Shown here in pieces: positions 10,665 through 59,194 of a stretch of 64,000 nt of DNA (positions within the stretch are counted from its first letter, which is position 1; each line of letters starts with the position of its first letter). The notes beneath the pieces are model-generated. The model searched no databases and was not told where the DNA came from. It worked only from the letters and a program-made list of their open reading frames with translations. Source of the DNA: Dechloromonas denitrificans (GTDB lineage Bacteria; Pseudomonadota; Gammaproteobacteria; Burkholderiales; Rhodocyclaceae); NCBI RefSeq assembly GCF_020510665.1, contig NZ_CP075187.1, forward strand, positions 2,666,001 through 2,730,000, in the 5' to 3' direction. Both the position numbers and the translations under genes were made by a program.

Positions 10665-12290
10665 ATGAAATACAAATATCCGCTCCTTGCGGCAACTCTG
10701 ATTGCCTTGTCGACGTTTGCCCTCTACTACCCGTTTATTGGCAACCCCCTGATCTTTGACGACTACAACCTGTTTAACGGCCATCACTCAATCTATGATC
10801 TGGCCCTGGTACCGTTTAACCCCTATCCCCGGACTTTTCCCTTATTCACCCTCGGATTTGTTGAAACAATCTGGAAAAGCCTGGAAATCAACCGCTTGGT
10901 CAGCATCGGCATTCACATCGCCAATGCCCTATTGCTCGGACGCCTTGTTTTTGACCTGTTGCGACTAGTCGACCGCGAAACGCCACCGACAAACACCCTA
11001 CTGACAGCAACCACCCTGTCGCTCTTTTTCGCACTGCATCCAGTCGCCACCTATGGTGCTGGCTACCTTGCACAGCGCACCATCCTGCTGGCGACTTTTT
11101 TCGGGCTATGGGCCTTCTTCTTTCACTTGCGCTCATATCGCCGGCAAGCAGTGTCAGATCAGATAACCGCCGCACTGTTCTACTCTCTGGCTGTTTTCTC
11201 AAAAGAGCATGCCATCATGCTGCCCATCGCCATCGCACTCAGCACATTTCTGCAAACTGCGCCACGCCACCAGAAACTGCTCAAGACGGGGCTATTTCTG
11301 GGCCTATCCAGCTGTACCAGTATTTATATCCTGCTCTGCCTGAAAGGTCTGATCGGCGCCTACGAGCCTGCCGGCGCAAGTTCGGCGGCAAGTTTGCCTG
11401 AGCTTGCATTGACGCACTCGGCCAGCGGACAGTGGCTACTGAGCGCCATCGGACAGGCCGGGCTGTTTTTCAAGTATCTGATCGCGTGGCTGATTCCAAA
11501 TCCTGGATCAATGTCGATCGATATGCGCGTGGACTTTGCGAACAATCTGTCACCCATCGGAATCATCTTGCAGCTTTCCGCCTTTCTGCTGTTGATCGGC
11601 GGGGCTTGTTTCCTGTTAAGCAAGCGTGGCCTGCCTGCCCTCGCAGGCTTTGGCCTGCTCTACACCGGGACGCTGTACTTGACCGAATTTTCCACATTCA
11701 GGCTACAAGAACCTTTTGTCTTGTACCGCAGCTATATCTGGGCCCCCGGAATCGTTTTTTCACTGGCTGCCGCGCTCGGCATGCTACGCCTGTCAACAAG
11801 GGTGGCATCGGCCATGCTGCTCGTTCCGCTGCTGCTTTTTCCCTTGGCAATCGACCGCCTCAAAAGCATGCGAAGCGAGCTAAGCATCTGGGTTGATGCG
11901 GCAGAGAAGCTGACCAATCCGACACTCCCCGGTGCTGAGCGCATTTTTTACAACCGCGGCCATCAATACCTGAAGCAAGGCAAATACGCCGAGGCGTTAT
12001 CGGACATGCAACAGGTCGTCGCCAACCACCCCGAGAGCTATGAAGGCTACATTGGCCTCGCCAACGTTCACGCAGCGATGAATGATCCGGTACAAGCTGC
12101 AGCTGATCTTGATCAGGCTGAAAAGGTGACGACAGCTCGTACAGCATTGGGGCAGATCTATTTCAAACGAGCACTACTGCTATTAACCCAAAAACAAAAC
12201 CTGGCGGCAGAAGAAATGCTTAAGCAAGCCATTGCTTATGGCCACAATGGGGCAAAAGTACTGCTAGAAGCCCGATTTTCCACGCGATAA
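10665..12290 (+). CDS. GT-C-type membrane glycosyltransferase with C-terminal TPR repeats (possible pilin glycosyltransferase)
   Basis: 541 residues. Roughly ten transmembrane segments occupy residues 5-400, followed by TPR-like repeats (about 425-535). The first extracytoplasmic loop has a paired acidic motif (IFDDY, D32-D33). Later come FALHPV and an AQRT element, a layout resembling TMTC/PMT-like GT-C transferases that use lipid-linked sugar donors. It is convergent with a type IV pilin gene 55 bases away. Pilin-modifying transferases (TfpO, TfpW, PglL types) are often neighbours of the pilin gene, so modification of that pilin is a reasonable hypothesis. Substrate and donor are not shown by the sequence. 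Confidence 0.7.
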   Translation: MKYKYPLLAATLIALSTFALYYPFIGNPLIFDDYNLFNGHHSIYDLALVPFNPYPRTFPLFTLGFVETIWKSLEINRLVSIGIHIANALLLGRLVFDLLRLVDRETPPTNTLLTATTLSLFFALHPVATYGAGYLAQRTILLATFFGLWAFFFHLRSYRRQAVSDQITAALFYSLAVFSKEHAIMLPIAIALSTFLQTAPRHQKLLKTGLFLGLSSCTSIYILLCLKGLIGAYEPAGASSAASLPELALTHSASGQWLLSAIGQAGLFFKYLIAWLIPNPGSMSIDMRVDFANNLSPIGIILQLSAFLLLIGGACFLLSKRGLPALAGFGLLYTGTLYLTEFSTFRLQEPFVLYRSYIWAPGIVFSLAAALGMLRLSTRVASAMLLVPLLLFPLAIDRLKSMRSELSIWVDAAEKLTNPTLPGAERIFYNRGHQYLKQGKYAEALSDMQQVVANHPESYEGYIGLANVHAAMNDPVQAAADLDQAEKVTTARTALGQIYFKRALLLLTQKQNLAAEEMLKQAIAYGHNGAKVLLEARFSTR

Positions 12291-13027: not shown

Positions 13028-14614
13028 TCAGCAATCCACCTGCTCATCCAGCAAATAGCTGGCAGCATACGTCCTGAACACCTCGCCCCGGACAAAGACA
13101 TCGAACAGGTCCGGGTCGATATGGCCGCCTTTCTTGAAGTTTTCCATGATGCCCAGCGCCTGGGTGAGTTTCATGGCTTCCTTGTAGGGGCGGTCTTTCG
13201 CGGTCAACGCTTCGAAAATGTCAGAAATACCCATCATCCGGGCCTGCCAGCTCATTTCGTCACGCTTCAGGCCTTTAGGATAACCCTTGCCATCCATCCG
13301 CTCGTGGTGGCCGCCAGCGTATTCCGGCACATTGCGCAGATGTTTCGGCCAGGGCAGTTGTTCCAGCATGCGGATCGTCGCGACGATGTGGTGGTTGATG
13401 ATTTCACGTTCATTCTGGGTCAGCGTGCCGGCGCGAATGGTCAGGTTGTCGAGTTCGTCCGCTGACAGGAAATCGGTTTCGATGCCCGCCGGATTGGTCC
13501 AGCGGTACTTGCCGGCCATCGCCTTGACCCGTTCGATCGCCTCATCGCTCATCCGTTCGCCACCGATATTGGCCTGGCGCAAAAAGTCGCGGTCGACATC
13601 GCATTCACGGCAAAAATCGAGAAAAACACGCTCGGCTTCAACCGCTTCCTGGCCGCCCGCGATCTGGCGCCATTGGCGGACTTCGGCATCACGCTTGACG
13701 ATCTCGAAACGCGTATCGATCAGATCGATCCGGTCGTAAATCGTTTGCAACTTGGTTGCCTTGTCGACGACATGAACCGGCGTCGTCACCTTGCCACAAT
13801 CATGCATCAGCGCCGCGATACGCAGCTCGTACCTGTCCTTGTCGGTCAGCTTGAAGTCGGCAAGCGGGCCTTCCGTCGTGGCATCGACCGCATCGGCCAG
13901 CAGCATGGTCAGTTCGGGGACGCGCTGGCAATGACCGCCGGTGTGGGCCGACTTTTCGTCGATGGCCAGATTGATCAGCTTGATGAATGACTCGAACAGC
14001 GTTTCCAGCTGCTCGACCAACTGGCGATTGGTCAGCGCAATCGCTGCCTGCGAGGCCAGCGACTCGGCCAGCCGCTGGTCGGCCTGCGAAAACTCGGTCA
14101 CCTCGCCACTGCCCGTCTTGAGCGCATTGATCAGTTGCAGCACGCCGATGATTTCACCTTCATGGTTTTTCATCGGCACGGTGAGAAAGGATTGCGAGCG
14201 ATAGCCGGTGCGCTCGTCGAATTTGCGCGTTCCCGAAAAATCGAAGCCTTGTGCGGTATAGGCATCGGAAATATTCACCGTTTTACCGTGAATCGCAGCA
14301 TACGCGGCAACCAGGGAGTTGTTCGGTGAGCCATCCGGGTTGTAGAGCGGCAAATCGGGAAACTTGCCGGAGGTCGATTGGCCGCTACTGCCACCGAAGG
14401 CAATATTCAGGGAATCGGTCCGGACAATTTCGAAATGCAGCGACTGGCCATCCTCTGCCAGCAAATACAGCGTACCGCCATCGGCGCGGGTGATGGCCTT
14501 GGCGGCGAGGAGAATTTTCTCAAGCAACAGGTTGATATCGCGTTCATTTGAAAGCGATGCCCCGATATCGTTGAGTTGTTCGAGCCGGCGAAAAAGATCC
14601 TGAATGGTTTCCAT
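13028..14614 (-). CDS. GAF-HD-GYP protein (probable c-di-GMP phosphodiesterase)
   Basis: 528 residues. An N-terminal GAF sensor domain (about 15-190) is followed by an HD-GYP domain with the first metal His in HTGGHC, H271-D272 in HDCGK, the HHE triad at 436-438 and the GYP signature at 444-446. HD-GYP enzymes hydrolyse c-di-GMP to pGpG or GMP in the cytoplasm. About 165 residues separate the HD and HHE motifs, roughly 95 more than usual, marking a large insertion. The ATG at 14614 is chosen because the GAF domain starts there and AGGGG precedes it; a longer open frame reaches 14797 inside the upstream gene. Last gene of the signalling operon, 43 bases after the cNMP-binding protein. Confidence 0.9.
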   Translation of the reverse strand: METIQDLFRRLEQLNDIGASLSNERDINLLLEKILLAAKAITRADGGTLYLLAEDGQSLHFEIVRTDSLNIAFGGSSGQSTSGKFPDLPLYNPDGSPNNSLVAAYAAIHGKTVNISDAYTAQGFDFSGTRKFDERTGYRSQSFLTVPMKNHEGEIIGVLQLINALKTGSGEVTEFSQADQRLAESLASQAAIALTNRQLVEQLETLFESFIKLINLAIDEKSAHTGGHCQRVPELTMLLADAVDATTEGPLADFKLTDKDRYELRIAALMHDCGKVTTPVHVVDKATKLQTIYDRIDLIDTRFEIVKRDAEVRQWRQIAGGQEAVEAERVFLDFCRECDVDRDFLRQANIGGERMSDEAIERVKAMAGKYRWTNPAGIETDFLSADELDNLTIRAGTLTQNEREIINHHIVATIRMLEQLPWPKHLRNVPEYAGGHHERMDGKGYPKGLKRDEMSWQARMMGISDIFEALTAKDRPYKEAMKLTQALGIMENFKKGGHIDPDLFDVFVRGEVFRTYAASYLLDEQVDC

Positions 14615-14657
14615 GACTACCCCTGATTGGCTGCTGACAGCCTGTACGTAACGGCAC

Positions 14658-15689
14658 TCATGTGCCGCTCCCGAGCAAGCCATCCTGCAACCAGAAAGCC
14701 TTGAAGCCGCGCTGGGCAAGCAGGAAGGCTGCAGCCGAACTGCGCCGCCCGGAACGGCAATAAACAATGTATTCACGCGATGGATCAAGCAGGCCAAAAG
14801 CCGAGCGAATTTCGCTCAAGGGCAGGTTGACCGCGCCAGGCAAGCCATTTTCGGCGAACTCGGCGGCGTAACGCACATCCAGCCAGCAAGCGCCGGCCGC
14901 AACTTTGGCATCGGCTGCCGGTCGGCCAAGCGCATGCAGCAAGGGGGTGCGCAGCAAGGCGAGAAAATCGGGTTTGGCCAGACGAAACAGCACGCCATCC
15001 GTTTTCATCACCACCGAAGCATTGCGCAGGGAGTCTGAAACCAGGGCTTCTTCACCAAAAGCATCCCCGGCCTTGAATTCGGCCAGCCGAACATCCGCGC
15101 CGCCGACGCGTTTGAACACTTCGCAGCGCCCGCTCTCAATCAGATAGTAATAATCACCCGGTTCGCCCTCCTTGATGACCGAAGCCCCCCGGCGCACAAC
15201 GATGCGCTCGAAACGCTGCAGCAATTCGTGGATGTGGGCCGGCGGCAACTGGGCCAAGGCACCGGCAGTCAAGGCCTGGGCGCTGAAAGCACCGGTCATT
15301 TTGCCCCATTCCGGCGCGGGAGCCGGGTCGACCGCAGCAGACAGGTCATCCCAGGTCATCATGATGTCGAGCAGTTCAAAATCAATGCGCAACAGCGTGA
15401 CGTCGGTAATGGCCTTGCTGCTCAGCGGCAACACAGTCTTGTAGCCGATCGGCCAGTTGGCAATATCGCAACCGCCGACCAGCACGCGCATGCTGCCATC
15501 GAGCAGGACAATTTTCAGCTCGCCGGCCAGCAAAAAAACGAGGTGCGCCCCCACGCCGATATCGCGCAAGGGGTCGCTGCCACGCGCATGGGTTTCCGGC
15601 ACACACAAGCGGACCAACTCTTCCAGGCGGGCCGACGACAAACCGCAGATCGGCTCAAGTCGGCTCAGCGTGCGGAGATTCAGTTCCAT
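14658..15689 (-). CDS. Cyclic-nucleotide-binding domain fused to rhodanese
   Basis: 343 residues, no membrane segment. The N-terminal 130 residues resemble a degenerate cNMP-binding fold. A second, intact one (about 150-255) has the phosphate-binding cassette FGEEAL followed by SLRNASV, whose Arg contacts the cyclic phosphate. The C terminus (about 265-343) is a rhodanese domain with the active-site loop CRSGRRSS, whose Cys would carry sulfane sulfur. The gene starts one base after the stop of the cNMP phosphodiesterase and belongs to the operon holding the adenylate cyclase. It is therefore the likely cAMP effector of the set. What the rhodanese part does is not known. Confidence 0.88.
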   Translation of the reverse strand: MELNLRTLSRLEPICGLSSARLEELVRLCVPETHARGSDPLRDIGVGAHLVFLLAGELKIVLLDGSMRVLVGGCDIANWPIGYKTVLPLSSKAITDVTLLRIDFELLDIMMTWDDLSAAVDPAPAPEWGKMTGAFSAQALTAGALAQLPPAHIHELLQRFERIVVRRGASVIKEGEPGDYYYLIESGRCEVFKRVGGADVRLAEFKAGDAFGEEALVSDSLRNASVVMKTDGVLFRLAKPDFLALLRTPLLHALGRPAADAKVAAGACWLDVRYAAEFAENGLPGAVNLPLSEIRSAFGLLDPSREYIVYCRSGRRSSAAAFLLAQRGFKAFWLQDGLLGSGT

Positions 15690-15690
15690 A

Positions 15691-16458
15691 TCAGAACTCG
15701 ATCAACTGGTTGTTTTGCAACATTTTTGGTTTGAAGTCACCGAGGCAGGTTTCGATTTCTTCCATGGTCAGTTCGATCTGGCCCGGTTTGAGATGCGTGA
15801 TGTGGATTTCACATTCACGCTCCAGCTTTTGCAGTTCGGTCGCCAGCATATTCGGACAAAGATGCTTGGAAACCAGCGCCAACTGTTGCTCGCGATTGGA
15901 GAAAGCGCACTCGATGATCAGGTGACGCAGATTGGGAATGCGATTGACGACACGCCAGAAAGCATCGCAAACCCCTGTATCGCCTGAAAACACAAGACTG
16001 GCCTCACCGGAATCGAGACGATAGCCGACCGCCGGGACGGTATGTTCGGCAGGCAAGGCGGTAATCTGCCGTCCGCCAAGATCGATCGTCTGGCCGCGCT
16101 CGATGCTTTGGAAACGCATGAACGGGGCTTCCGGCGTGGGAATTTCGGAGAAATCCGGCCAGATGGCCCAGTTGAAAATATGATTGCGCAAAATAGTCAG
16201 CACGGCCTCCGTGCCATAAACCACCAGCGGCTTGTTGCGCCGGTCAGCCACGGTATCGATCATCAGCGGCAATGACGCAATATGATCGAGGTGGCTGTGG
16301 GTCAGGAAAACGTGGTCGATCATCGAAAGTTCGGCAATCGACAGATCGGCGGCTCCGGTGCCGGCATCGATCAGGATGTCCTGATCGAGCAGCATCGCCG
16401 TGGTGCGCTGACTCCGTCCGCCGATACCGCCGCTACAACCGAGAATGCGCAGTTTCAT
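15691..16458 (-). CDS. Class II cyclic-nucleotide phosphodiesterase (metallo-beta-lactamase fold)
   Basis: 255 residues with the metallo-beta-lactamase zinc motif THSHLDH near residue 60 and the GxxxGG start of class II cAMP phosphodiesterases. Further conserved metal ligands occur in PAEHTVP and FSGDTG. Such enzymes hydrolyse cAMP or cGMP to the 5' nucleotide. It begins two bases after the adenylate cyclase gene and ends next to the cNMP-binding protein. Synthesis, breakdown and sensing of the same messenger therefore appear encoded in a row. The ATG at 16458 begins the conserved N terminus; an open frame continues upstream into the cyclase gene but is not supported. Other MBL activities (RNase Z-like) are less likely. 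Confidence 0.82.
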   Translation of the reverse strand: MKLRILGCSGGIGGRSQRTTAMLLDQDILIDAGTGAADLSIAELSMIDHVFLTHSHLDHIASLPLMIDTVADRRNKPLVVYGTEAVLTILRNHIFNWAIWPDFSEIPTPEAPFMRFQSIERGQTIDLGGRQITALPAEHTVPAVGYRLDSGEASLVFSGDTGVCDAFWRVVNRIPNLRHLIIECAFSNREQQLALVSKHLCPNMLATELQKLERECEIHITHLKPGQIELTMEEIETCLGDFKPKMLQNNQLIEF

Positions 16459-16460
16459 GA

Positions 16461-18677
16461 CTATTTTGTCTGGAAAGTGGTGACGCCATCCCAGTTTTCC
16501 CCGGGCGGATTGGCCCGCAGGGTGGCGACACGCTCTGTGTAGAGAACATAAAGGCGACAATCCGGAGCCTGTCGCCGCAAGTTGTAAAGCTGCAGTTCGG
16601 CCTGATCCCAATCCTTCCCACGATAGAGGCGCAATGCGTGCTGCCATTGCTGTAATTCATCGAGTACGGCCGCCGACAACTCGGTCGTCGGACCCAGCGG
16701 CTCATAGATGGCAACCGGCTCATCCTTGCCTTTCACCCGCACCCGGTCAAGCTCGCGGAAGCTGATGTCGGTGACTTGCTGCCGGGTAAGCTCGCCGGCC
16801 ACGATACCAACCCCGTATTCCTTGGTGATGCCTTCGAGCCGGGAAGCCAGGTTCACGGCATCGCCCATCACGGTGTAAGCCTTGCGGACCGACGAGCCCA
16901 TATCGCCCACGGTCATCATGCCGGTATTGATCCCGATACCGATGTGAAGTTCCGGCCAGTTACGCGCCCGGAACGGTTCGGCCAGCGCTTTCAGCTGTTG
17001 CTGCATGGCCAGCGCGGTCAACACCGCATGACGGGCATTTTCCGAATCCTTGACCGGCGCCCCCCAGAAAGCCATGATCGCATCGCCGATATATTTGTCG
17101 AGCGTTCCCCGGTTGGACCGAATGACATCGGTCATCGCCCCGAGATAATCATTCATCAGATGTGTCAGCTCCTTCGGGTCCAGCCCTTCGGAAATGCTGG
17201 TGAAACTGCGGATATCGGCGAAGAGCACGGTCAATTCCTCGTTGCGCCCCTCCATGCTGTAGCTTTCCGGATTGCGCGCCATTTCATCGACCAGTTCCGG
17301 CGGCACGTACTGGCCGAACAATTCGGCGAACTGGCGCTTGGTGCGTGATTCGACGAAATAGCCCCACGACATGTTCAAGGCGTAGAGCAACGCTGTCAGT
17401 AAAACCCCGGCCGCCAAAGGCTGGACAAAATTGGCCGAGGTCCACAACCAGAGGTTGATCCCGATGATCCCCCCCAAGGTAAGCAGCGCCAGCAAAGTGG
17501 CCCGAAAAGGAGAAAGAAGCGGTAGCAGAAAAACCAGCAATGCCCCGAATGCCAGCAGTTGCAGCACTTCAAATCCGAGCAGGAAGCCGGGAGCTTCCTT
17601 GATCGCACCATCAAGCATGCCGGCAATCAGGTTGGCATGCACCTCAACACCGGGATAGGCAGCCCCAACCGGCGTCGAGCGCAAATCGTTGAGGCCGGGG
17701 GCTGAAGTACCCACCAGGACGATGCGGCCATTCAACTGCGCTTTGGAAATCCGCCCATTCAGCACGTCGACCGCGGAAAGGTAAGGAAAGCTGCGTTCGG
17801 CACCACGATACGGCACCAGCGCAGAAACATGCTGATCGACCGGAATCCGGATTTGCAGGCCGTCGCTGACGACGTTCAGGGCTTCGATAAAATCGGCGTC
17901 GCCATCGCTTTCAATAACCGGGTGCAGTTCAGTGCGTCCGATCTGGGTCCGCAGCACGGCCAGCGAGAGCGACTCGTAATACGCCCCTTCATACTCGACC
18001 ACCATCGGCACTCGCCGGACAACGCCGTCAAAATCAACGTCCGGATTGAAATGACCGCCACTGGCTGCCGCACTTTGCAGAATGGGCAAATTACCGCCGA
18101 AACCAACTCGCCGGATGAAATCGATATCCCTGCCCTGCAAGCTGTCCGCCTTGAAAACCGGCGGTGGCAAGGCACCGGCCAGTTGATGCGTGGTCTTGTC
18201 GGAAAAGTAATAGCCCAGCACGACAGGACGGCCACGCAGGATCTCGGCAAACATGCGGTCGAAATCAAGCTGTGGCCGATAAGTCTGCAACACCCGCTGA
18301 TAAGCTGCGTCGCTCTTGAGTTCCTGACGACCGATCTGGTCTAGCACCTTCAAGCCGGAACTATCATCCGGCTCAGCGAACACCACGTCGAAGCCGATCA
18401 CCGACACCTGGTAATCATCGGTCAAGCGTTGCACCAGATCGGCCACTGTCTTGCGCGACCAAGGCCAGCGCCCGAGTTCAGCCAGGCTTTTTTCATCGAT
18501 GTCGACGATGACGATGCGCTCATCGATACCGTCCTGCATCGAAAGCCTCAGGCGTGCATCGTAGAGATAGGCATCCAGCGCGGTGACAAATGGCAATTGC
18601 CAGACGTGTGCCACATGGCCGAGCAAGAGCAGCACACACAGGGCGCCGAGAATGAAGCGGACGAGATGCTTTTTCAT
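16461..18677 (-). CDS. CHASE2-domain adenylate cyclase, class IIIb
   Basis: 738 residues. An N-terminal signal-anchor helix, a large extracytoplasmic CHASE2 sensor domain (about 30-330), three transmembrane helices (about 345-430), then a class III cyclase domain (about 475-660). Catalytic metal Asp are D488 (LFADIR) and D532 (YIGDAIMAF). The purine-selecting pair is K528 and T602, which predicts ATP as substrate (class IIIb). Transition-state N609 and R613 are present. It should make cAMP in response to an external cue. The sensor domain type is shared with the kinase five kb upstream in the same operon. Confidence 0.92.
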   Translation of the reverse strand: MKKHLVRFILGALCVLLLLGHVAHVWQLPFVTALDAYLYDARLRLSMQDGIDERIVIVDIDEKSLAELGRWPWSRKTVADLVQRLTDDYQVSVIGFDVVFAEPDDSSGLKVLDQIGRQELKSDAAYQRVLQTYRPQLDFDRMFAEILRGRPVVLGYYFSDKTTHQLAGALPPPVFKADSLQGRDIDFIRRVGFGGNLPILQSAAASGGHFNPDVDFDGVVRRVPMVVEYEGAYYESLSLAVLRTQIGRTELHPVIESDGDADFIEALNVVSDGLQIRIPVDQHVSALVPYRGAERSFPYLSAVDVLNGRISKAQLNGRIVLVGTSAPGLNDLRSTPVGAAYPGVEVHANLIAGMLDGAIKEAPGFLLGFEVLQLLAFGALLVFLLPLLSPFRATLLALLTLGGIIGINLWLWTSANFVQPLAAGVLLTALLYALNMSWGYFVESRTKRQFAELFGQYVPPELVDEMARNPESYSMEGRNEELTVLFADIRSFTSISEGLDPKELTHLMNDYLGAMTDVIRSNRGTLDKYIGDAIMAFWGAPVKDSENARHAVLTALAMQQQLKALAEPFRARNWPELHIGIGINTGMMTVGDMGSSVRKAYTVMGDAVNLASRLEGITKEYGVGIVAGELTRQQVTDISFRELDRVRVKGKDEPVAIYEPLGPTTELSAAVLDELQQWQHALRLYRGKDWDQAELQLYNLRRQAPDCRLYVLYTERVATLRANPPGENWDGVTTFQTK

Positions 18678-18701
18678 GGCGCCCCCGAGTAACTCAGCCG
18701 G

Positions 18702-19394
18702 TCATGACTTGAAGAAGAATTCCATCTTGATGCCGGCAATTTCAATCACATCATGGTCGCAAAGAGCACGCGCCTGAGCGTCGAGCTGAATGCCATTGAC
18801 CACCGGAAACTGCGTACCTTCTACGTGCGTAATGAAATACCCGTTGGGCCGCTTGGCGATGACCGCCACCTGCAGGCCGGGTTTGCCGAGTGTCGTCAGG
18901 GTCTTGGTCAGCTCCAGTTCCTTGCCGGCATTCACGCCACTCAGGAGCTGGATGAAGCCGGCCACCACATGGGGAGCCTGTGGCGTTGCCGGTGCAGCCC
19001 CGACATTTGAACGCGCCGGCGAATCCGTCGGCGACATCAGCAGGTCGGCCCGCCCGCCCGAACGACGCATGGCCGCCTTGTCGATATCGCTGCTTGCGCT
19101 GGTGGACATGTCGGTCATGTATTTGAGCTTGTATTTACCGAGCTCAACCACGTCGTTATTGCGCAGGAAATACTTCTTCACCGGCTGACCATTGACCAAT
19201 GTACCGTTGGTACTGTTCAGGTCTTCCAGAAAGGAATCGTTGAGGATGGTGACTACCGCAGCGTGTTCGCCGGAAATTGCCAGATTGTCGATCTGAATGT
19301 CATTGCTCGGTTTGCGCCCGATCGTCAGGCGCTCCTTGTTGAGCACGATTTCCTTGAGCACCAGCCCGTCCATCGAAAGAATCAGTTTTGCCAT
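18702..19394 (-). CDS. FHA-domain protein with a second FHA-like domain
   Basis: 230 residues. A canonical FHA domain (about 1-95) shows the phosphothreonine-binding residues in TIGRKPSND, SGEHA and NSTNGT. After a linker rich in Ser, Ala and Pro, a second region (about 140-230) has the same strand pattern (GKPGLQVAVI, FPVVNG, HDVIEIAG) but lacks the key residues. It should read out phosphorylation made by the neighbouring Ser/Thr kinase and removed by the PP2C phosphatase, 15 bases upstream. It is not fused to an effector, so it may act as an adaptor. Confidence 0.92.
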   Translation of the reverse strand: MAKLILSMDGLVLKEIVLNKERLTIGRKPSNDIQIDNLAISGEHAAVVTILNDSFLEDLNSTNGTLVNGQPVKKYFLRNNDVVELGKYKLKYMTDMSTSASSDIDKAAMRRSGGRADLLMSPTDSPARSNVGAAPATPQAPHVVAGFIQLLSGVNAGKELELTKTLTTLGKPGLQVAVIAKRPNGYFITHVEGTQFPVVNGIQLDAQARALCDHDVIEIAGIKMEFFFKS

Positions 19395-19409
19395 GTTGTT
19401 CTCGTCACA

Positions 19410-20234
19410 TCACTTGAGCCAGTTACGCAGCTTGTGCCAGCGTCCCTGGGTCGTGGAATTATCAGCCGCCACCTTGACCAGAATGACCGAAATATTATCC
19501 CAGCCACCATTATCGTTAGCCATCCTGACCAGTTCGTCGGCGGTTCGGGTCAGATCATCCGACTGACTCAGCAAACGGGCGATATCTTCATCCTCGACCA
19601 TGTCGTTCAGGCCATCGGAGCAAAGCAGGAAAACATCACCGGTCTGGACGTCGAAACTATTGACCTCCGGCTCAACGGAAGGATCGACCCCCAGCGCCCG
19701 CGTCACCAGGTTCTTGTTATTCGACTGCCTGGCTTCTTCCGGGGAAATCAAACCGCTGTCGATTTGCTCCTGAATCAGCGAGTGATCGCGCGTCAGTTGC
19801 TCCAAGTGTTCGCCACGCAGCCGATAAAGTCGCGAGTCGCCGACGTGCACGGAGCTCATCCGGTCACCATAAAACAGCGCGGCAACCAGGGTCGTGCCCA
19901 TACCGGCACAGCGCGGCTGGTTCCTGGCGGCGAGATGGATGGCCGAGTTGGCAGCAATGACTTCGTCGATCAGGTGCAGATTGGCGCGCGCATCGTCAAT
20001 CGCTTCGTGCTTGGCCTCGAAAGCAGGAATCAGGCTGGCAAAATTAGTGGCCATCTGGCTGACCGCCATACCGCTGGCCACCTCACCCGCCCGGTAGCCC
20101 CCCATGCCATCCGCCAGGATGGCCAGCCCCAGTGCTGCATCGGCATACAATGCATCTTCGTTATGGGTTCTGATCTTGCCCGGATGGGTTTGCGTCACCA
20201 TCTCCAGGCCTACTGCAAGATTCATAGCGTTCAT
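19410..20234 (-). CDS. PP2C-type Ser/Thr protein phosphatase
   Basis: 274 residues, cytoplasmic, with all main PPM/PP2C metal-binding motifs: RTHNEDA, LADGMGG, VHVGDSR, LCSDGL and GGWDNISV. It should dephosphorylate targets of the kinase encoded just upstream; its start overlaps the kinase stop by four bases (ATGA). Members of this kind (Stp/PrpC) commonly pair with PknB-like kinases. No regulatory extension is visible. Confidence 0.95.
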   Translation of the reverse strand: MNAMNLAVGLEMVTQTHPGKIRTHNEDALYADAALGLAILADGMGGYRAGEVASGMAVSQMATNFASLIPAFEAKHEAIDDARANLHLIDEVIAANSAIHLAARNQPRCAGMGTTLVAALFYGDRMSSVHVGDSRLYRLRGEHLEQLTRDHSLIQEQIDSGLISPEEARQSNNKNLVTRALGVDPSVEPEVNSFDVQTGDVFLLCSDGLNDMVEDEDIARLLSQSDDLTRTADELVRMANDNGGWDNISVILVKVAADNSTTQGRWHKLRNWLK

Positions 20235-22807
20235 TCCTCAGTCCGTCCGGCGGGTAGCGCAATCAACGCTGCAAGACAGGATCGCAAATCAGTTGCCACA
20301 TCGGCAGCTCGTTGATAACGCTGGACAACGTTTTTGTCCAGCGCCTTGTTGATGACATCGACGAGCGCCTGCGGCAGGGCTGGATTGATCGTCAGGATAT
20401 CGGTTTGGGTTTCGTTGGCAATCTTGTACATCAATTGAGCCAGAGAATCACCGGAAAAAGGCAGTTGACCGCAGCACAACTGGTACAGCGTAACGCCGAG
20501 CGAAAAAATATCCGAACGGCCATCGATTTTCTTGCCGGCCAGTTGCTCCGGCGACATATAGGAGGGCGTGCCCAGCACCATCCCGGTCTTGGTCCGTGAT
20601 GAATCGGTAATCCGGGCAATGCCGAAATCCGTCACCTTGACTTGATCCGAAGCCACTTCGTACATAATGTTGGCAGGTTTGATATCGCGGTGCACCACCT
20701 GCTGAGCATGCGCGTAATCGAGGGCATCGGCGACCTGGGCCATAATCGACAAGGTCGCCGGCAACGGCAGCAAGGCCGAAGTCTTGGTGTAGGGCATCAA
20801 ATCGCGCCCCTTGAGAAACTCCATCGCAATGTAGGCCAGATCCTGTTCCTCGCCGGCATCGTACATCGTGACGATATTCTGGTGATTCAGGCGCCCGGCT
20901 GTTTCAGCTTCACGGAAAAAACGCTGTTTGACGTCGGCCAGCTCATCCTCGTCGAATTCCTGGGCCAGGGCCATCGTCTTGATGGCCACCACCCGATTGA
21001 TTTTCGGATCGCGCCCCTGGTACACCACCCCCATGGCACCTTTGCCGAGCTCTTTTTCAATTTGGTAACGGCCCAGCATCGGCTTTTCGAGAACCGTATC
21101 ACCCAGCATCAGCGTTCCCGTTGCCGTTTGGCCCCGGCCGCCGGCCAGCATCACGGTTTCGGACATCTGGCGGGCGACCTTGAGGCGGGTCGTCAGGTCG
21201 CGAAACTTCGGATTGAACCCGATCAGGTATTGAAACACCGCCTCGGCCTTGTTGAACTGGCGCTTGCGCTCGTAATCCAGTGCCAGGTTATACATGTTCT
21301 CCATCAGCCCTTCATCCATCGGGCACTTGCGGAACTTGTCGAAAGCCATATCGAGCTGGCCCTGCCCCTGAAAAGCAAGCCCCAGCATGCGGTTCGACTC
21401 ACCGGATTCGATATCCGACTTTTCCTTGCCCCGCTCAGTCACCAGGAAGCGCTTGGTGGTCAGCAACAAATGGCCGATCACCAGCAGCGAAGCGGCCCAC
21501 ATCAGCTGTATCCACAAGCCGGAAAGCACCATCATCTGGAAGTGCGCAGCAAACAAAACAAACAACAAGACGGAAGTCAGCAAGGCGCCTTTACCGGCCG
21601 ACAGACGGGGCAACAGCAAGGTGACATACAAGGCCATCAGCACGAATACGCCCAAGCTGGCCCAACCGCCCCAGGCCGGCGTCACGAAAAAATGCTCCTG
21701 CAGGATGCTCGACACGGAATGCGCCACGATCATCACCGGCGCCATGGTCGGCGAAACCGGGGTCACCTGGGTAGCACCGACACCGGCGGCCGTAGCGCCA
21801 ACCAGTACGATCTTGCCGGCGTATTTGCTGGCCGGAATTTTTCCGGTCAGGACATCGTAGAAAGAATCGATCTGAAACGGCGGTCGACCGTCGCGTTCCT
21901 TGTAGAAGAAAGTATTCATCTGGCTCGTCAAATCCGTGGCGATACGCAGTTTGCCGAGACGAACCTCTTTGCCAGGCAGTACCTTGATATCCTCCGGCCC
22001 GAGATTCAGGCTACGAGCAGCGATCATCAGCGCCAGCGAAGGAAAATACTGGTCGAAATAATTGAGCACCAAGGCCTCGGTACGCACCGCACCGTCGATA
22101 TCCGGGCTGGCATTGAGATGCCCCAGCGCCACCGCCTGCAGCCCAAGCGGCTCAACAGGAATTTGTATTTGCCCCGCCTGGAGCACACTACCCGGTCCCT
22201 GGCCAATCGTCGCAAGACGATTCTTCAAGACGAAATCCGGCAAGACCTTGTCAGCTCTCCCCTGTGCCTCACCCAAACGGAACAGCAAGGGCAACAGGAC
22301 ATTGCCCGCCTGTTGATAGCTTTCCGCCAGTTTGCGATCGGTATTCAGCGCCTGTTCAGCCTCGGTCAACAGCGCCGCGATCTGTTCGATTTCCGGCGTC
22401 GGCGCAGTCCCTTCGGCGACACTTTGGTTGACCAGCTCGATCAGCCGGGTGACGTAACTGTAACCGGGGTCAATTTGCGGTTCGGAGAAAAAAATGGTGT
22501 TGGCAACCAGTTTGGCGGGGGCCGTACGCAACTGGTCGGTCAGCTTGGCATGCAGATCGCGGGGCCACGGCCAGCGCCCGAGATTGGCGATGCTGTAATC
22601 ATCAATCGCAATAACCGCGATACGGTCAGAAGGGCTGCGCTGCGCCATCTGCACGCCCATGTCGTACGCCTTGCGCTCCAGGCTCTGCAGGAGATCGGTC
22701 CCACCAGCAACGAGCATCAGCAGGCTGATTGCCATGCCGAGAAACCAGTCGGACTTCCAGAAAGCTGCTTTTGCCATTCGCCCCATCCATTGTGACTGCC
22801 GATTCAT
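20231..22807 (-). CDS. CHASE2-domain Ser/Thr protein kinase
   Basis: 858 residues. Signal-anchor helix (about 16-35), extracytoplasmic CHASE2 domain (about 40-365), three membrane helices (about 370-450), a cytoplasmic linker with TPR-like helices (about 480-560), then a Hanks-type kinase (581-850). Active-site features are the Gly loop GKGAMG, K610, the HRD catalytic D708, the DFG D727 and the SPEQL end of the activation segment, so it should be active. First gene of the seven-gene operon and coupled to its phosphatase. The signal sensed by CHASE2 is unknown. Confidence 0.94.
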   Translation of the reverse strand: MNRQSQWMGRMAKAAFWKSDWFLGMAISLLMLVAGGTDLLQSLERKAYDMGVQMAQRSPSDRIAVIAIDDYSIANLGRWPWPRDLHAKLTDQLRTAPAKLVANTIFFSEPQIDPGYSYVTRLIELVNQSVAEGTAPTPEIEQIAALLTEAEQALNTDRKLAESYQQAGNVLLPLLFRLGEAQGRADKVLPDFVLKNRLATIGQGPGSVLQAGQIQIPVEPLGLQAVALGHLNASPDIDGAVRTEALVLNYFDQYFPSLALMIAARSLNLGPEDIKVLPGKEVRLGKLRIATDLTSQMNTFFYKERDGRPPFQIDSFYDVLTGKIPASKYAGKIVLVGATAAGVGATQVTPVSPTMAPVMIVAHSVSSILQEHFFVTPAWGGWASLGVFVLMALYVTLLLPRLSAGKGALLTSVLLFVLFAAHFQMMVLSGLWIQLMWAASLLVIGHLLLTTKRFLVTERGKEKSDIESGESNRMLGLAFQGQGQLDMAFDKFRKCPMDEGLMENMYNLALDYERKRQFNKAEAVFQYLIGFNPKFRDLTTRLKVARQMSETVMLAGGRGQTATGTLMLGDTVLEKPMLGRYQIEKELGKGAMGVVYQGRDPKINRVVAIKTMALAQEFDEDELADVKQRFFREAETAGRLNHQNIVTMYDAGEEQDLAYIAMEFLKGRDLMPYTKTSALLPLPATLSIMAQVADALDYAHAQQVVHRDIKPANIMYEVASDQVKVTDFGIARITDSSRTKTGMVLGTPSYMSPEQLAGKKIDGRSDIFSLGVTLYQLCCGQLPFSGDSLAQLMYKIANETQTDILTINPALPQALVDVINKALDKNVVQRYQRAADVATDLRSCLAALIALPAGRTEE

Positions 22808-53705: not shown

Positions 53706-55529
53706 GTGCGCGTGCAATTGTTCATCATTTCATCCATCCCGCTGTTACTGATTGCGTGTAGCACGCCTGTCGTACACGATCGGGTGCCAGGGCACCTGAA
53801 TCCCGCAAGCACCACACAAATCATCCCAGGCAATATTCCAAGCCCGGTACTGAACAATTTGCCACCACCTGTGAACTCTGCCGCACAGACAAACAAGGCC
53901 GAAACCTACAGTGTCGTGGTCAACAACATTCAAGCGCGGGATTTGCTGTTTGCCCTGGCGCGCGATGCAAAAATCAACGTCGACATTCACCCTGGCATAT
54001 CGGGGACGCTAAGCCTCAACGCCATCGATCAAACCCTGCCGCAACTTCTACAGCGAATCGCCAGGCAAGTTGATATTCGCTTCGAATTTGATGGGGACAA
54101 TATTTCGGTGATGCCAGATTCACCGTTTCTCAGGCATTACACCGTTGACTACGTCAATATGGCGCGCAATGTCAGCGGGACGATCTCGACCAACACGCAG
54201 ATTTCAACGGCGGGAAACATGCCGGGTGCGGCGACGGGCGGCAGTGCGGGAAATATATCCAATACGCGGATCGACAATAGCGCCAAGAATATTTTCTGGG
54301 AGTCGCTGGAAAAAAACATCAAGGACATCCTGCGGGAAACCGACAAGACATTGCCCGAGGGCAGCAGCGAAACAGTCATTGAACAAACCGATAGCAGAAA
54401 CTCGACAGGGCCGCAGCCCCAGCCTCCCAACAACCCTCGAACACACCGCCCCGCAGCCAACACCGTCCAACAAACATCGCCAGTCCCCAGTTCATCACAG
54501 ACTGCCGCCAACTCAACCATCCGGCGCAACACGTTTCGCGAAGCCGCCGCCGTTATTCTGAATGCCGAAAGTGGCGTCATCACCGTCCGTGCCACCCAGC
54601 GGCAACACGAAAAAATACAGGAATTCATCGACCGGGTAGTTCATGCCGCCCGCCGTCAAGTCATGATCGAAACGACGATTGTCGAGGTCGAACTGTCCGA
54701 TGGCTTCAAACAAGGCATCGACTGGAGCCGCTTTCGCGCGGACGACTCCGGCTTCTCCATCACCCGGCCGGCCAACGGGAGTGTTGCTGATTCGGCCAAC
54801 ACGGCATTCAGCCTGATTTTGCGGCAACTCAACAAGCCGCTCAATCTCGTCGCCGCAGTCAATCTTCTCGAATCGTTCGGTACGACCAAGGTGCTCTCCA
54901 GCCCTCGCTTATCGGTACTCAATAACCAAACGGCGCTACTCAAGGTTGTTGAAAGCATTGTGTACTTCAACGTCAAATCCGACACGACCACATCAGCCAA
55001 TGTTGGCACCACGACCGCCGTCACAACCACGCCGCAATCGGTCTCGGTTGGTCTGGTGATGGCCGTCACGCCGCAAATCAGTGAATCCGGAACGGTGATC
55101 ATCAATATCCGGCCAACCATTTCCAGCGTTTCCGACTGGAAGGAAGACCCCAATCCATCGAACAAAGCAGCCGGCGTCCAGAATCTTGTCCCACAAATCC
55201 GTACCCGCGAAGTCGAGTCGGTGATGCGCGTGACAAGCGGGGACATTGCCGTATTAGGCGGTTTGATGGAGGACGGTATCAGTTACAACACCGGCCGGAT
55301 TCCCTTGCTCGGACAAATACCGCTGGCTGGAGAGCTGCTTACCAAGCGCGACAACAGTTCCCGAAAGTCCGAACTGGTCATTTTTCTAAGGCCCGTCGTC
55401 ATCAAGGAAGCCAGTCTCGAAGGGGACTACCGCTCGCTGAAAGACCGCCTGCCTGGACCAGGGATGTTTTCGCCTGGATTTTCGGCACACAGCATCACCG
55501 GCCTTCCCGAGGCAAGCAGACATCCATGA
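53706..55529 (+). CDS. mshL: MSHA-type pilus secretin (MshL-like, lipoprotein)
   Basis: 607 residues from a GTG with GAGGA upstream. It has a lipoprotein signal (LLIAC, Cys18), an STN-like domain (about 60-140), a Pro/Ser/Asn-rich linker, and a secretin domain from about 320 on, ending in VLGGLMEDG and LVIFLRPVV. It should form the outer-membrane pore for the pilus. The MshM ATPase gene that often follows mshL is missing here. Confidence 0.93.
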   Translation: MRVQLFIISSIPLLLIACSTPVVHDRVPGHLNPASTTQIIPGNIPSPVLNNLPPPVNSAAQTNKAETYSVVVNNIQARDLLFALARDAKINVDIHPGISGTLSLNAIDQTLPQLLQRIARQVDIRFEFDGDNISVMPDSPFLRHYTVDYVNMARNVSGTISTNTQISTAGNMPGAATGGSAGNISNTRIDNSAKNIFWESLEKNIKDILRETDKTLPEGSSETVIEQTDSRNSTGPQPQPPNNPRTHRPAANTVQQTSPVPSSSQTAANSTIRRNTFREAAAVILNAESGVITVRATQRQHEKIQEFIDRVVHAARRQVMIETTIVEVELSDGFKQGIDWSRFRADDSGFSITRPANGSVADSANTAFSLILRQLNKPLNLVAAVNLLESFGTTKVLSSPRLSVLNNQTALLKVVESIVYFNVKSDTTTSANVGTTTAVTTTPQSVSVGLVMAVTPQISESGTVIINIRPTISSVSDWKEDPNPSNKAAGVQNLVPQIRTREVESVMRVTSGDIAVLGGLMEDGISYNTGRIPLLGQIPLAGELLTKRDNSSRKSELVIFLRPVVIKEASLEGDYRSLKDRLPGPGMFSPGFSAHSITGLPEASRHP

Positions 55530-55551
55530 CATTTCCCCCGAACAAGCGATC

Positions 55552-56286
55552 ATGAGGTTCTTGATAATGATTATCGTAGCACTCCTCATCCCGGCCCTGG
55601 CGATGGCCGGAAGTCTTGGCAATCCCCCGAAAGGGCTGGCTTCGAATCACGACCAAGGTACGCCACATCAAGCCAAGCCGACTGATAAAAACATCGGAGC
55701 AGGAGCACTTGTTTGCCAGCCCCTCGCTGAGCCAGAAAAACCGGACGAACTTGACTTGGTGCAGTTGGCGTATCAGAAGCAGTCGGCCAAGGATCCCAAC
55801 AACACGGACATTCTTCTTGCTCTCGCGACCATTGCTGAAAGAAAAAACCGGCCCGATGCGGCAGAGAAACTCCGGCGACAGGCGCAACAGGCCAACCCTC
55901 AATCTCCAGCAGTCATTGCCAGCGTTATCGGTTCACTCAAAGGCGGCGTCATGCGCCGCGAAGCAGAAAGCCATCTCAGAACCTGGCTGGCAGCTCATCC
56001 ACGCTCAGCCGCCCTGCACTTTACCCTGGGAAATCTGATGGCCGGAGAAGGGCGCTGGGATGAAGCCGAACTAGCCTATTTCAATGCCGTCGCCAATGAA
56101 TCAGGCAACCCGGACTTTCTCTTCAACCTGGCCATCAGTCTTGACCGGCTAAGGCAGTACCGCCTCGCCATTCAGCATTATCGACTGGCACTGGAAGCTT
56201 CAGACAAGCGTCTCGCCGGGTTTGATATTGCCCAGACCAGACTTCGCCTGATCGAGTTGCAACAAGTCCTGTCGGATACGCGATGA
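55552..56286 (+). CDS. TPR protein of the MSHA-like pilus operon (MshN-like)
   Basis: 244 residues with an N-terminal export signal (about 1-20) and TPR-like repeats (about 70-235), matching the position and type of MshN, a scaffolding factor in pilus assembly. It lies between the secretin and ATPase genes and overlaps the latter by four bases. No clear Shine-Dalgarno. Confidence 0.75.
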   Translation: MRFLIMIIVALLIPALAMAGSLGNPPKGLASNHDQGTPHQAKPTDKNIGAGALVCQPLAEPEKPDELDLVQLAYQKQSAKDPNNTDILLALATIAERKNRPDAAEKLRRQAQQANPQSPAVIASVIGSLKGGVMRREAESHLRTWLAAHPRSAALHFTLGNLMAGEGRWDEAELAYFNAVANESGNPDFLFNLAISLDRLRQYRLAIQHYRLALEASDKRLAGFDIAQTRLRLIELQQVLSDTR

Positions 56287-57992
56287 ATTCATCGACATCA
56301 CAACATCTGCCGCTCGGCCAGGCACTCATCACCGCCGGATTGCTGAGTGACGATCAATTGCATATTGCCTTGCGCGAGCAGCAAGAAAGAAAACAGCAAT
56401 TGGGACGCCTTCTGGTCACCCTGGGTTTTCTGAGCGAAAAGCATTTATGCCAGACGTTGGCTGCGATACAGGGCAAGACGAGAATTGACCTGGCAAACAT
56501 CAGCATTGACCCTGAAGCACTCAAACTGATCCCCGGCGATCTCGCCAGACGCCAGCGTGTGTTGCCGCTTGATTTTGACCAGGTGCGCCGACACCTGCTT
56601 CTGGCGGTTGCCGACAGTCACGACCTGCTCGCCCAGGATCAGATCCAAGCTGAACTGGGTTCTGAATTCAAGATTGAAATGCGGCTTGCCGGGGAATCGG
56701 AGATCAGCCAGGCCATTGATCGATTCTATGGCCATGATTTTTCGATCGACGGCATCTTGCATGAACTGGCCACAGGCGAAATCGACCGAAAACAACTGTC
56801 GACCGCAACACCCGATTTTGGACACCCTATCGTTCGACTAATTGATTCCTTGCTGAATGATGCCGTCAAGCGAACCGCCTCGGACATTCACTTTGAACCG
56901 GAGGCTCACTTTCTACGCATTCGCTACCGGATAGATGGCGTACTCCGCCAGATCCGCGCGTTACACAAATCATGCTGGCCGGCGATGATGGTTCGCCTCA
57001 AGGTTATGGCCGGGATGAATATTACCGAGACGCGAGCACCGCAAGATGGCCGAATCAGCCTGAACATTTCAGGCCGGCCGGTTGATTTCAGGACGGCCTG
57101 CCAGCCAACCATCCATGGCGAAAACATGGTCATGCGCATCCTGGACCGGCGGCAAGGCATCATTCCCCTGGAAGACCTCGGACTGAGAACGCACCATCTG
57201 GCACAACTCAAACGGATGATCGCTCGACCGGAGGGTGTCATTCTGGTCACCGGCCCCACTGGCAGTGGAAAAACCACAACCCTCTATTCAATTCTGGGCC
57301 AGATAAACAGCGAAGGCGTCAACATCATGACGCTGGAGGACCCGGTTGAATACCAGTTGCCGATGGTGCGTCAGACCTCTCTGGGAGAAAGCAGCAAACT
57401 GGATTTTGCCAGCGGCATCCGATCGATGATGCGCCAGGATCCGGACGTGATTCTGGTCGGAGAGATACGCGATCCGGAAACGGCAGAAATGACCTTTCGG
57501 GCCGCCATGACCGGTCATCAGGTTTTCTCGACCTTGCACAGCAACTCAGCCATCGGTGCGATTCCCCGGCTTCTTGATATCGGCGTACAGCCGGACATGA
57601 TGAGCGGCAACATTATCGGCATCATTGCCCAGCGGCTGGTTCGCCGCCTTTGCCAGACATGCCGGCAGCCCCGCATCGCAACGAGCGAGGAGCTCAAGCT
57701 ACTCGATCACGACACCACCGCAGCGACAAACCTGACCATTTATCACTCGCTAGGCTGTCCAGCCTGTGAGCATCAGGGCTATCGTGGACGGATTGCCTTG
57801 ATCGAAACGTTGCGCATCGGCCCCGGGCTGGACAAATTGATCGCGCAACGAAGCACTTTGGTCACACTGCGCGAACAAATGCATGGGGAAGGCTTCCAGA
57901 CACTGGCCGATGACGGCGTTCAACATGTCATCGAGGGCAACACCTCGCTCGAAGAACTCTGTCGCATCGTTGACCTGAGCGAACGGATGTAG
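56283..57992 (+). CDS. mshE: MSHA-type pilus extension ATPase (MshE-like) with MshEN-type domain
   Basis: 569 residues. The first 60 residues contain two copies of the 24-residue MshEN pattern (LGQALITAGLLSDDQL and LGRLLVTLGFLSEKHL), the c-di-GMP-binding domain of MshE. The catalytic part has Walker A GPTGSGKT (K330), the Asp box, Walker B DVILVGEIRDPETAE, and a zinc tetra-Cys motif (CQTC and CPAC). It powers pilus extension at the inner membrane. In the first repeat the Arg that begins RLG in other MshEN domains is Pro10, so ligand affinity is uncertain. Confidence 0.94.
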   Translation: MNSSTSQHLPLGQALITAGLLSDDQLHIALREQQERKQQLGRLLVTLGFLSEKHLCQTLAAIQGKTRIDLANISIDPEALKLIPGDLARRQRVLPLDFDQVRRHLLLAVADSHDLLAQDQIQAELGSEFKIEMRLAGESEISQAIDRFYGHDFSIDGILHELATGEIDRKQLSTATPDFGHPIVRLIDSLLNDAVKRTASDIHFEPEAHFLRIRYRIDGVLRQIRALHKSCWPAMMVRLKVMAGMNITETRAPQDGRISLNISGRPVDFRTACQPTIHGENMVMRILDRRQGIIPLEDLGLRTHHLAQLKRMIARPEGVILVTGPTGSGKTTTLYSILGQINSEGVNIMTLEDPVEYQLPMVRQTSLGESSKLDFASGIRSMMRQDPDVILVGEIRDPETAEMTFRAAMTGHQVFSTLHSNSAIGAIPRLLDIGVQPDMMSGNIIGIIAQRLVRRLCQTCRQPRIATSEELKLLDHDTTAATNLTIYHSLGCPACEHQGYRGRIALIETLRIGPGLDKLIAQRSTLVTLREQMHGEGFQTLADDGVQHVIEGNTSLEELCRIVDLSERM

Positions 57993-57994
57993 CC

Positions 57995-59194
57995 ATGCGG
58001 TTCCGCTACAAAGCACTCAGCAACGATGGACAGCTCGCCCAGGGTTATGCCGAGGCGCAGGATACGGTCGACCTCGAAACGAGGTTGAAAATCAGGCACC
58101 TGGAACTGATCCGCTGCCAGCCATGCCGCTACCGCCCGCTCTTTGGCCAGCCGACCATCACGCGGCGCGACCGGATTGACTTCTGTTTTCATCTGGAGCA
58201 CCTGACCCGGGCGGGCATTCCGGTTCTCGACGGGCTGAAGGATTTACAAGCCGCCACGGAACACAAGGTTTTCCGGCAAGCCATTGGCGAGATGATTTGC
58301 GACATTGAAAACGGGCAAACCATTTCCCAATCGATGGCTGTCCATCCTCACCTGTTCGACGCCATCTTTGTCAATTTGATCAAAGCCGGAGAGGAAAGCG
58401 GCCAGCTGCCGAGCACACTGACCAACCTCGGCGAAGCCCTCAAATGGGAGGATGAACTCTCTTCGCAAACCAAAAAACTGCTGCTCTACCCCGCTTTCGT
58501 TGCAACCGTCGTCATCGGCGCCACCATATTCCTGATGCTGTACATGGTGCCGCAACTGAAACTGTTTCTCAGCGGCACAGGGCAAGCCATTCCCCTGCAA
58601 ACCCGGCTTCTGTTTCTCACCGCGGCGCTTGTTGCTGACTGGTGGCCGTTGATCATTACCTTGCCCATCGCTGGCGGCATCCTGATTCGATGGATCCTCG
58701 ATACCTCCCAGAACACCCGGCAACGCGCCGATGCCTTGATACTTAAATTGCCGATTATCGGCCCACTGCTAGGCAAAATCAGCCTCGCCCGATTTGCCAA
58801 TACCTTTGCCATGCTCTACGGCTCAGGCATTTCAGTCCTGCAAGCCCTCAGCATCACACACGGCGTCGTCGACAACCGGGCCATCCGCGCGGCACTGCAA
58901 GATGTCGAAAAATCGATTCAGGATGGCAGCAACATTGCCGAAGCATTTACGCGCACCGGACTGTTTCCGCCGTTGATCATCCGCATGCTGCAAATTGGGG
59001 AAAGCACGGGCGGGCTGGATAGTGTGCTGCTCAATGTCAGCTATTTTTATACCCGCGACATCAGGGAGTCGATCGGACGCCTCCAGTCGCTGATTGAACC
59101 TGCCTTGACTTTACTGATTGGTGGCTTGCTTGGCTGGATCATGATGGCGCTGATCGGTCCAATTTATGATGTGATCGGACAGGTCAAAACATGA
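57995..59194 (+). CDS. mshG: Inner-membrane platform protein (GspF/PilC family, MshG-like)
   Basis: 399 residues with two GspF repeats, each followed by membrane helices (three in all). Key segments are HLTRAGIPVLDGL and the mirrored FAMLYGSGISVLQAL. It lies two bases after the ATPase gene and overlaps the next gene by four. Confidence 0.95.
   Translation: MRFRYKALSNDGQLAQGYAEAQDTVDLETRLKIRHLELIRCQPCRYRPLFGQPTITRRDRIDFCFHLEHLTRAGIPVLDGLKDLQAATEHKVFRQAIGEMICDIENGQTISQSMAVHPHLFDAIFVNLIKAGEESGQLPSTLTNLGEALKWEDELSSQTKKLLLYPAFVATVVIGATIFLMLYMVPQLKLFLSGTGQAIPLQTRLLFLTAALVADWWPLIITLPIAGGILIRWILDTSQNTRQRADALILKLPIIGPLLGKISLARFANTFAMLYGSGISVLQALSITHGVVDNRAIRAALQDVEKSIQDGSNIAEAFTRTGLFPPLIIRMLQIGESTGGLDSVLLNVSYFYTRDIRESIGRLQSLIEPALTLLIGGLLGWIMMALIGPIYDVIGQVKT

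Follow-up and report, generated by a model that had tools for sequence, protein, structure and literature searches.

The stretch of DNA analysed here (the window) comprises 64,000 nucleotides of Dechloromonas denitrificans (assembly GCF_020510665.1, contig NZ_CP075187.1, positions 2,666,001 to 2,730,000). Seven adjacent genes within it encode a sensory Ser/Thr kinase (K), a phosphatase (P), an FHA protein (F), an adenylate cyclase (C), a metallo-beta-lactamase protein (M), a rhodanese protein that binds cyclic nucleoside monophosphates (cNMP) (R) and an HD-GYP enzyme that would degrade cyclic di-GMP (c-di-GMP) (H). An earlier note on this DNA treated these seven genes as the whole unit. It missed an eighth gene, called X here, which relatives carry between R and H, and a pilin gene directly downstream. 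The seven genes probably make up the signalling portion of a conserved operon for a pilus motor, K-P-F-C-M-(R)-X-H-(pilin), that would control type IV pilus extension and whose ATPase, X, could take the place of PilB. The features of the locus, in operon order, are as follows.

20231..22807, minus strand: K, CHASE2 sensor, TPR-like linker and Ser/Thr protein kinase (Pfam CHASE2 171.6 bits, Pkinase 194.4 bits)
19410..20234, minus strand: P, PP2C Ser/Thr phosphatase of the Stp1/IreP family (NCBIfam NF033484 252.6 bits, cut-off 230)
18702..19394, minus strand: F, FHA protein (Pfam FHA 69 bits)
16461..18677, minus strand: C, CHASE2 sensor and class III adenylate cyclase (Pfam CHASE2 209.6 bits, Guanylate_cyc 81.7 bits)
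15691..16458, minus strand: M, metallo-beta-lactamase fold, class II phosphodiesterase or RNase Z-like (Pfam Lactamase_B_2/PDEase_II)
14658..15689, minus strand: R, cNMP-binding and rhodanese protein (Pfam cNMP_binding 77.9 bits, Rhodanese 45.7 bits)
14615..14657, minus strand: 43-base gap between R and H, the position of X in relatives; no X in the window or genome
13028..14614, minus strand: H, GAF and HD-GYP c-di-GMP phosphodiesterase (Pfam HD_5 143 bits, GAF 55.5 bits)
12346..about 12822, minus strand: type IV pilin, directly downstream of H (Pfam N_methyl 40.3 bits, Pilin 32.3 bits)

From K to H the intergenic distances are -4, 15, 24, 2, 1 and 43 bases. These values assume ATG starts at 16458 for M and at 14614 for H, two genes for which the open-frame list also holds longer, overlapping frames. 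Open frames, DNA and Pfam matches agree with the gene number, order, strand and gaps given in the earlier note.

The neighbourhood was compared across relatives using the cNMP-rhodanese family as bait, and the best 80 of 385 places in public genomes were taken. At 50 of the 80 loci all eight genes, K-P-F-C-M-R-X-H, follow one another in a single order on one strand, and most of the others are cut by contig ends. The earlier note had named scattered homologues as a result that would speak against its operon; the homologues are instead complete and collinear at many loci. Genuine gene gaps are the absence of the cyclase at L053, L037 and L027 and of the kinase at L012; L008 lacks K, P and F and carries a cyclase after H. 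A further set covers the order, Burkholderiales in GTDB terms. Here the collinear operon, full or contig-cut, occurs in 14 of 20 loci, 13 of them outside the family and one in the same genus. The proposal that the operon is found wherever the cNMP-rhodanese protein is was rejected, as it is absent from 6 of these 20 loci and from all 20 loci at class level. In the class outside the order, stand-alone double cNMP-rhodanese proteins are common: 129 of 274 genomes are positive for the R bait protein, and in all 20 loci read, the top scorers of that set (L116-L135), it stands alone, without the operon. At one class-level locus, L133, a CHASE2-cyclase-like gene adjoins R on the opposite strand.

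In 76 of the 79 loci informative for it (the remaining one of the 80, L031, is cut by a contig end), gene X stands between R and H; it is missing from L013, L016 and L027. It encodes a PilB/GspE-class ATPase of about 775 residues with the architecture GAF, MshEN, T2SSE. The ATPase motifs (Walker A/B, Asp box, His box and four-cysteine zinc motif) are invariant in all rows that cover the respective site (79 to 83 of 84), and the best model matches are PilB and GspE, under both cut-offs. At the differing thresholds of the family survey (R 1e-30, K 1e-100, X 1e-180), X was found in 104 of 150 family genomes, K in 52 and R in 44; in the order, 105/250 genomes carry X. Loci with X that lack R or K keep part-sets of the operon: F-M-X, P-F-M-X, P-F-M-X-H, K-P-F-C-M-X-H and others. 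Among 20 X-bearing loci, one per family (L156-L175), M occurs in 18, H in 14 and R in none. As a group, these genes are old and conserved.

These distributions bear on what the operon delivers. The earlier note proposed c-di-GMP breakdown as the output, and the seven genes might accordingly be a free-standing signal integrator beside which the pilus ATPase is an incidental neighbour. Such an integrator would fit the persistence of the regulatory shell without X in the window, in the same-genus genome G062 and at L013, L016 and L027, and also the competent look of the HD-GYP residues. The most widespread partner is however the pilus-type assembly ATPase itself, which in many loci accompanies F and M in the absence of K, C, R or H, whereas the HD-GYP gene is optional (14/20 loci). 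A free-standing integrator is improbable on these counts, and the proposed output was not upheld.

PilB is regarded as the standard motor of type IVa pili. Canonical PilB (TIGR02538 above cut-off) is present in 84 of 150 order genomes. X, PilB and pilM could be compared jointly in 58 order genomes, 46 of them pilM-positive. X is commoner where pilM is present (26/46 versus 1/12 pilM-negative genomes, p 0.003). The pilM-positive genomes divide into 19 with PilB only, 14 with both motors, 12 with X only and one with neither. Among pilM-positive genomes, X is thus carried by 12 of the 13 that lack canonical PilB, compared with 14 of the 33 that have it (p 0.0026). With one genome per family the counts are 10/11 versus 12/28 (p 0.011), and with a genome carrying a PilB/X hybrid left out they are 11/12 versus 14/33 (p 0.005). 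When pilM is disregarded the association weakens (p 0.25 with one genome per family, p 0.018 over all 142 genomes).

The pilC-pilD locus was read in the 13 pilM-positive PilB-less genomes and in five controls. All five controls have pilB there. Of the 12 X-bearing PilB-less genomes, 11 are without an intact pilB at the pilC locus and one (G184) has a hybrid. In eight X-bearing genomes, pilC is in place together with both of its upstream neighbours or with the nearer of them, and just 126 to 179 bases separate the matches. In G160 and G164, pilC-pilD is without pilB within the 12 kb read, and G151 retains a 150-residue C-terminal pilB remnant beside pilC (L187:5176-5625).

At the pilB locus of four genomes from two families, a PilB head is joined to an X-type engine (L182:3174-5099, L194, L195 and L196). 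These hybrids are the only X-type genes at a pilC locus; X itself sits in the signalling operon, not beside pilC or pilD. Their N-terminal part is 56-58% identical to a PilB, and their last 410 residues share 77-80% identity with X and 40-43% with PilBs. In the G184 hybrid, the first approximately 150 residues are 56% identical to one PilB and have no match to X, while the last 410 are 80% identical to the same genome's X and 41% to PilBs. In the tree, the hybrid engine groups with X proteins, next to the X of its own genome (support 0.78). On this sequence evidence, the hybrids are natural domain exchanges between the motors.

The operon is also linked to pilins. In 22 of 68 loci, the window included, a pilin start motif follows on the same strand no more than 6 kb downstream; one lies on the opposite strand in 1/68, and the motif scan found none in 932 kb of operon bodies. 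In a second set, 18/40 loci carry a same-strand downstream motif and none has one on the other strand. The link between operon and pilin is real, not universal.

Two membrane proteins, K and C, would supply the sensory input. Their CHASE2 parts are 24.5% identical (E 8e-22); the earlier note had seen the same sensor type in both. In the 20 X-bearing loci, one per family, K and C occur together in 10, K alone in one, C alone in one and neither in eight (counts read by eye; p 0.0009, or 0.0055 if the CHASE2-only fragment of L169 is scored as no kinase). Joint presence and absence fits one cue feeding both arms. The earlier note's proposal that one cue drives phosphorylation and cyclic AMP (cAMP) is to that extent favoured; the biochemistry behind it we infer. 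The note had also seen a writer with an eraser or reader for each signal in the same unit. The families were confirmed, and the tidy pairing was weakened: M stays beside X in 7 of 9 cyclase-less loci of L156-L175 and is kept in 11 of 12 cyclase-less loci of L136-L155, with L152, where a cyclase-like gene lies further off, left out. By gene content, M is not dependent on cyclase C, and the simple role of eraser for the operon's cyclase has lost ground.

The GAF domains of X and H resemble GAFs that bind cAMP or cGMP. In H, this domain matches the GAFs of PDE5 (E 7e-23) and of Anabaena CyaB2 (1ykd, E 1e-15); in X, its best GAF match is 1ykd (E 1.5e-23), which we take to be a cAMP-bound structure. 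A TGYR motif is near-invariant in both. These matches make a cyclic nucleotide the likely input to X and H.

All seven frames of the window are intact, and the checked catalytic and binding residues are conserved in nearly all aligned orthologues (71 to 96 per family). The earlier note had held that inactive kinase and cyclase domains would undermine the operon, and the residues checked give no sign of such inactivity. In K, the VAIK Lys, HRD Asp and DFG Asp are kept in 69/69 residue-bearing rows. In C, the metal Asp pair, the Lys/Asp adenine-type pair, the Asn and the Arg are each kept in 90/90, in roles that we take to be those of a class III adenylate cyclase, and the protein passes as a member of that class. 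The metal-binding Asp residues of P are conserved among aligned orthologues. The first FHA domain of F is canonical (R27, S41, H44 and N63 in 81/81 residue-bearing rows). Its second, FHA-like half has Lys (83/84) and Ala (84/84) where the canonical Arg and Ser are expected; this conserved half is probably not a phosphothreonine binder.

M has all metal ligands (HxHxDH) in 96/96 rows. It scores 56.0 bits on the PDEase_II profile (cut-off 23.7), with only residues 46-104 aligned, and 45 bits on NF041851, the equivalog for cyclic nucleotide-degrading metallo-beta-lactamases, which calls for 400. RNase Z models score higher, at 74.6 bits, yet under their cut-off of 292.95. M is presumed to be a cyclic nucleotide phosphodiesterase. 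Rv1339, a metallo-beta-lactamase protein of the same general kind, reportedly lowers cAMP in mycobacteria (PMC9293780). R keeps the cNMP Glu in 95/96 rows, the cNMP Arg in 96/96 and the rhodanese Cys in 95/96; its gene is duplicated in tandem at L020, L025 and G136:C44. In H, the HD, HHExxDGxGYP and distal Asp/Arg/Lys residues occur in 81/81 or 82/82 residue-bearing rows, and the protein qualifies as an HD-GYP phosphodiesterase. At the site aligned to the third-metal position of PmGH, where the ligand is presumably Glu, H has Tyr or His. The HD-GYP residues of H look competent.

X itself was searched for and is absent from both the window and the complete source genome, in which a canonical pilB is present. 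Within the genus, G147 has X in place and G062 has lost C, R and X. In the tree the window branch is not unusually long; deep supports near it are 0.46 to 0.58, and the number of X losses is not resolved. The best reading of these data is that the window holds a regulatory shell from which X was lost while canonical PilB was kept. The shell might instead be a decaying relic of the X loss, as the missing X and the further losses of C and R in G062 could suggest. Seven intact frames, the presence of the checked residues and the ordinary branch length make such decay very improbable.

Several points weigh against a pilus-motor operon in which X replaces PilB. Two X proteins reach 474.2 and 468.2 bits on TIGR02538, the PilB model, below its cut-off of 675.65. 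Pilin adjacency is seen in a minority of loci (22/68). The association tests, one-per-family versions excepted, ignore shared ancestry. At the thresholds used, neither motor was found in G196, a pilM-positive genome whose pilC-pilD locus is also without pilB. The GAF motif NKFDE is incomplete in both X and H. Two X proteins have no match to the c-di-GMP motif NF053729 (E 0.001), on which a window ATPase (56283-57992) scores 52.9 against a cut-off of 38 for the MshE motif; binding of c-di-GMP to X through MshEN was rejected on this ground, and X seems not to bind c-di-GMP. Since the window has no X, its operon cannot work in full as proposed.

Since X is also present in 14 of 33 PilB-positive genomes, it may, lastly, serve as an accessory motor or an alternative one for extension, resembling TfpB. 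PilB or another GspE-type ATPase would then stay the main engine, and the operon would tune a pilus that works without X. Coexistence of X and PilB in 14 of 46 pilM-positive genomes and the several other T2SSE ATPases per genome agree with this, as does Acinetobacter baylyi, which is described as running PilB and TfpB on one pilus (PMC11656802). An accessory role is nonetheless rather unlikely, given that X occurs in 12 of the 13 PilB-less pilM-positive genomes and that all of those 12 have lost pilB from its usual place or carry it there in remodelled form.

For the pilus-motor operon, the genomic side is well supported: sequence shows the conservation and gene order, X and its loss, the neighbouring pilin, and the missing pilB and the PilB/X hybrids of relatives. 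From these we infer the biochemical steps, the ligands and the driving of extension by X. (i) One CHASE2-type envelope cue would act on Ser/Thr kinase K and adenylate cyclase C. (ii) The PP2C phosphatase would reverse the kinase marks, and the FHA protein would read them. (iii) R would read the cyclic nucleotide, as would the GAF domains in X and H. (iv) M would remove the cyclic nucleotide, and the HD-GYP enzyme would lower c-di-GMP. (v) All inputs together would set when X extends pili. (vi) X would stand in for PilB in many relatives. In the window genome the shell presumably acts in trans on the pilus of the canonical PilB.

A related engine with a built-in domain resembling a nucleotide sensor seems to replace PilB in several families, and its gene shares a conserved operon with those for a Ser/Thr kinase, a phosphatase, an FHA protein, an adenylate cyclase and an HD-GYP enzyme. 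The operon offers a case in which one can test whether a second messenger acts on the motor of the pilus directly, not via transcription, and the natural gene-loss series is useful for dissecting the circuit. More tentatively, a GAF pilus motor may have displaced PilB across the order, with cAMP acting on the motor protein itself to gate extension, with a phospho-relay and an HD-GYP enzyme gated by cAMP in the same operon, and with motors that swap engines. The window would then be the reverse outcome, a shell taken over by the classical pilus.

In the open-licence literature, outside which most subscription papers lie, neither this operon nor a PilB with a GAF domain was found described. X shares the motor core of PilB and GspE. 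It differs from PilB in its N-terminal GAF, in its kinase, phosphatase, FHA, cyclase, metallo-beta-lactamase and HD-GYP neighbours and in scoring below the PilB cut-off. Among the closest known systems is the control of type IVa extension by PilB regulators (PilZ, FimX and c-di-GMP; the Pil-Chp/CyaB/Vfr cAMP circuit). Both cAMP and c-di-GMP are known inputs to extension, in P. aeruginosa among others (PMC11656802). The same 2024 review of PilB control presents TfpB of A. baylyi as a second motor; the word GAF is absent from its main text. Like X, TfpB is a second PilB-like motor for a type IV pilus, but X carries a GAF domain and, at 394 bits, falls short of the TfpB cut-off of 850. In the cyanobacterial Cya1-Sycrp system, cAMP controls pilus-based motility (PMC7690835); this works via Crp-type transcription factors and not through a motor-borne GAF. 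PmGH of Persephonella marina (PDB 4mcw) has the GAF and HD-GYP architecture of H (GAF match E 5e-12), but H carries a long insertion between its HD and GYP parts and its GAF is closer to those of PDE5.

In the threonine phosphorylation pathway of the type VI secretion system (T6SS), whose genes we take to be PpkA, PppA and Fha, kinase, PP2C and FHA genes are adjacent, as they are here. The sensor of the present operon is CHASE2, and no T6SS gene occurs among the annotated neighbours (operon and two neighbours covered). A T6SS-type phosphorylation cassette was rejected, the FHA protein scoring 39.5 bits against a TagH cut-off of 120.25. The pathway is named in PMC5995506. As to pili in other bacteria, Ramlibacter tataouinensis reportedly has one pilus machinery and three PilB paralogues, and a pilB-pilC mutant of Verminephrobacter eiseniae is described as lacking pili.

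Outside the operon, a terminator-like stem (12322-12299) lies behind the pilin gene. Across the scans, six promoter sites compare with 5.5 expected and 20 terminator-like sites with 14.3. A 541-residue multi-helix protein with TPR is encoded at 10665-12290 on the plus strand, opposite to the pilin; flanking-gene clustering, which includes many spurious antisense frames, places similar proteins downstream of the operon in a few relatives. At 53706-59191 on the plus strand, the window holds a second pilus or secretion-type cluster (secretin, TPR protein, T2SSE ATPase and T2SSF protein), which resembles an MSHA-type system.

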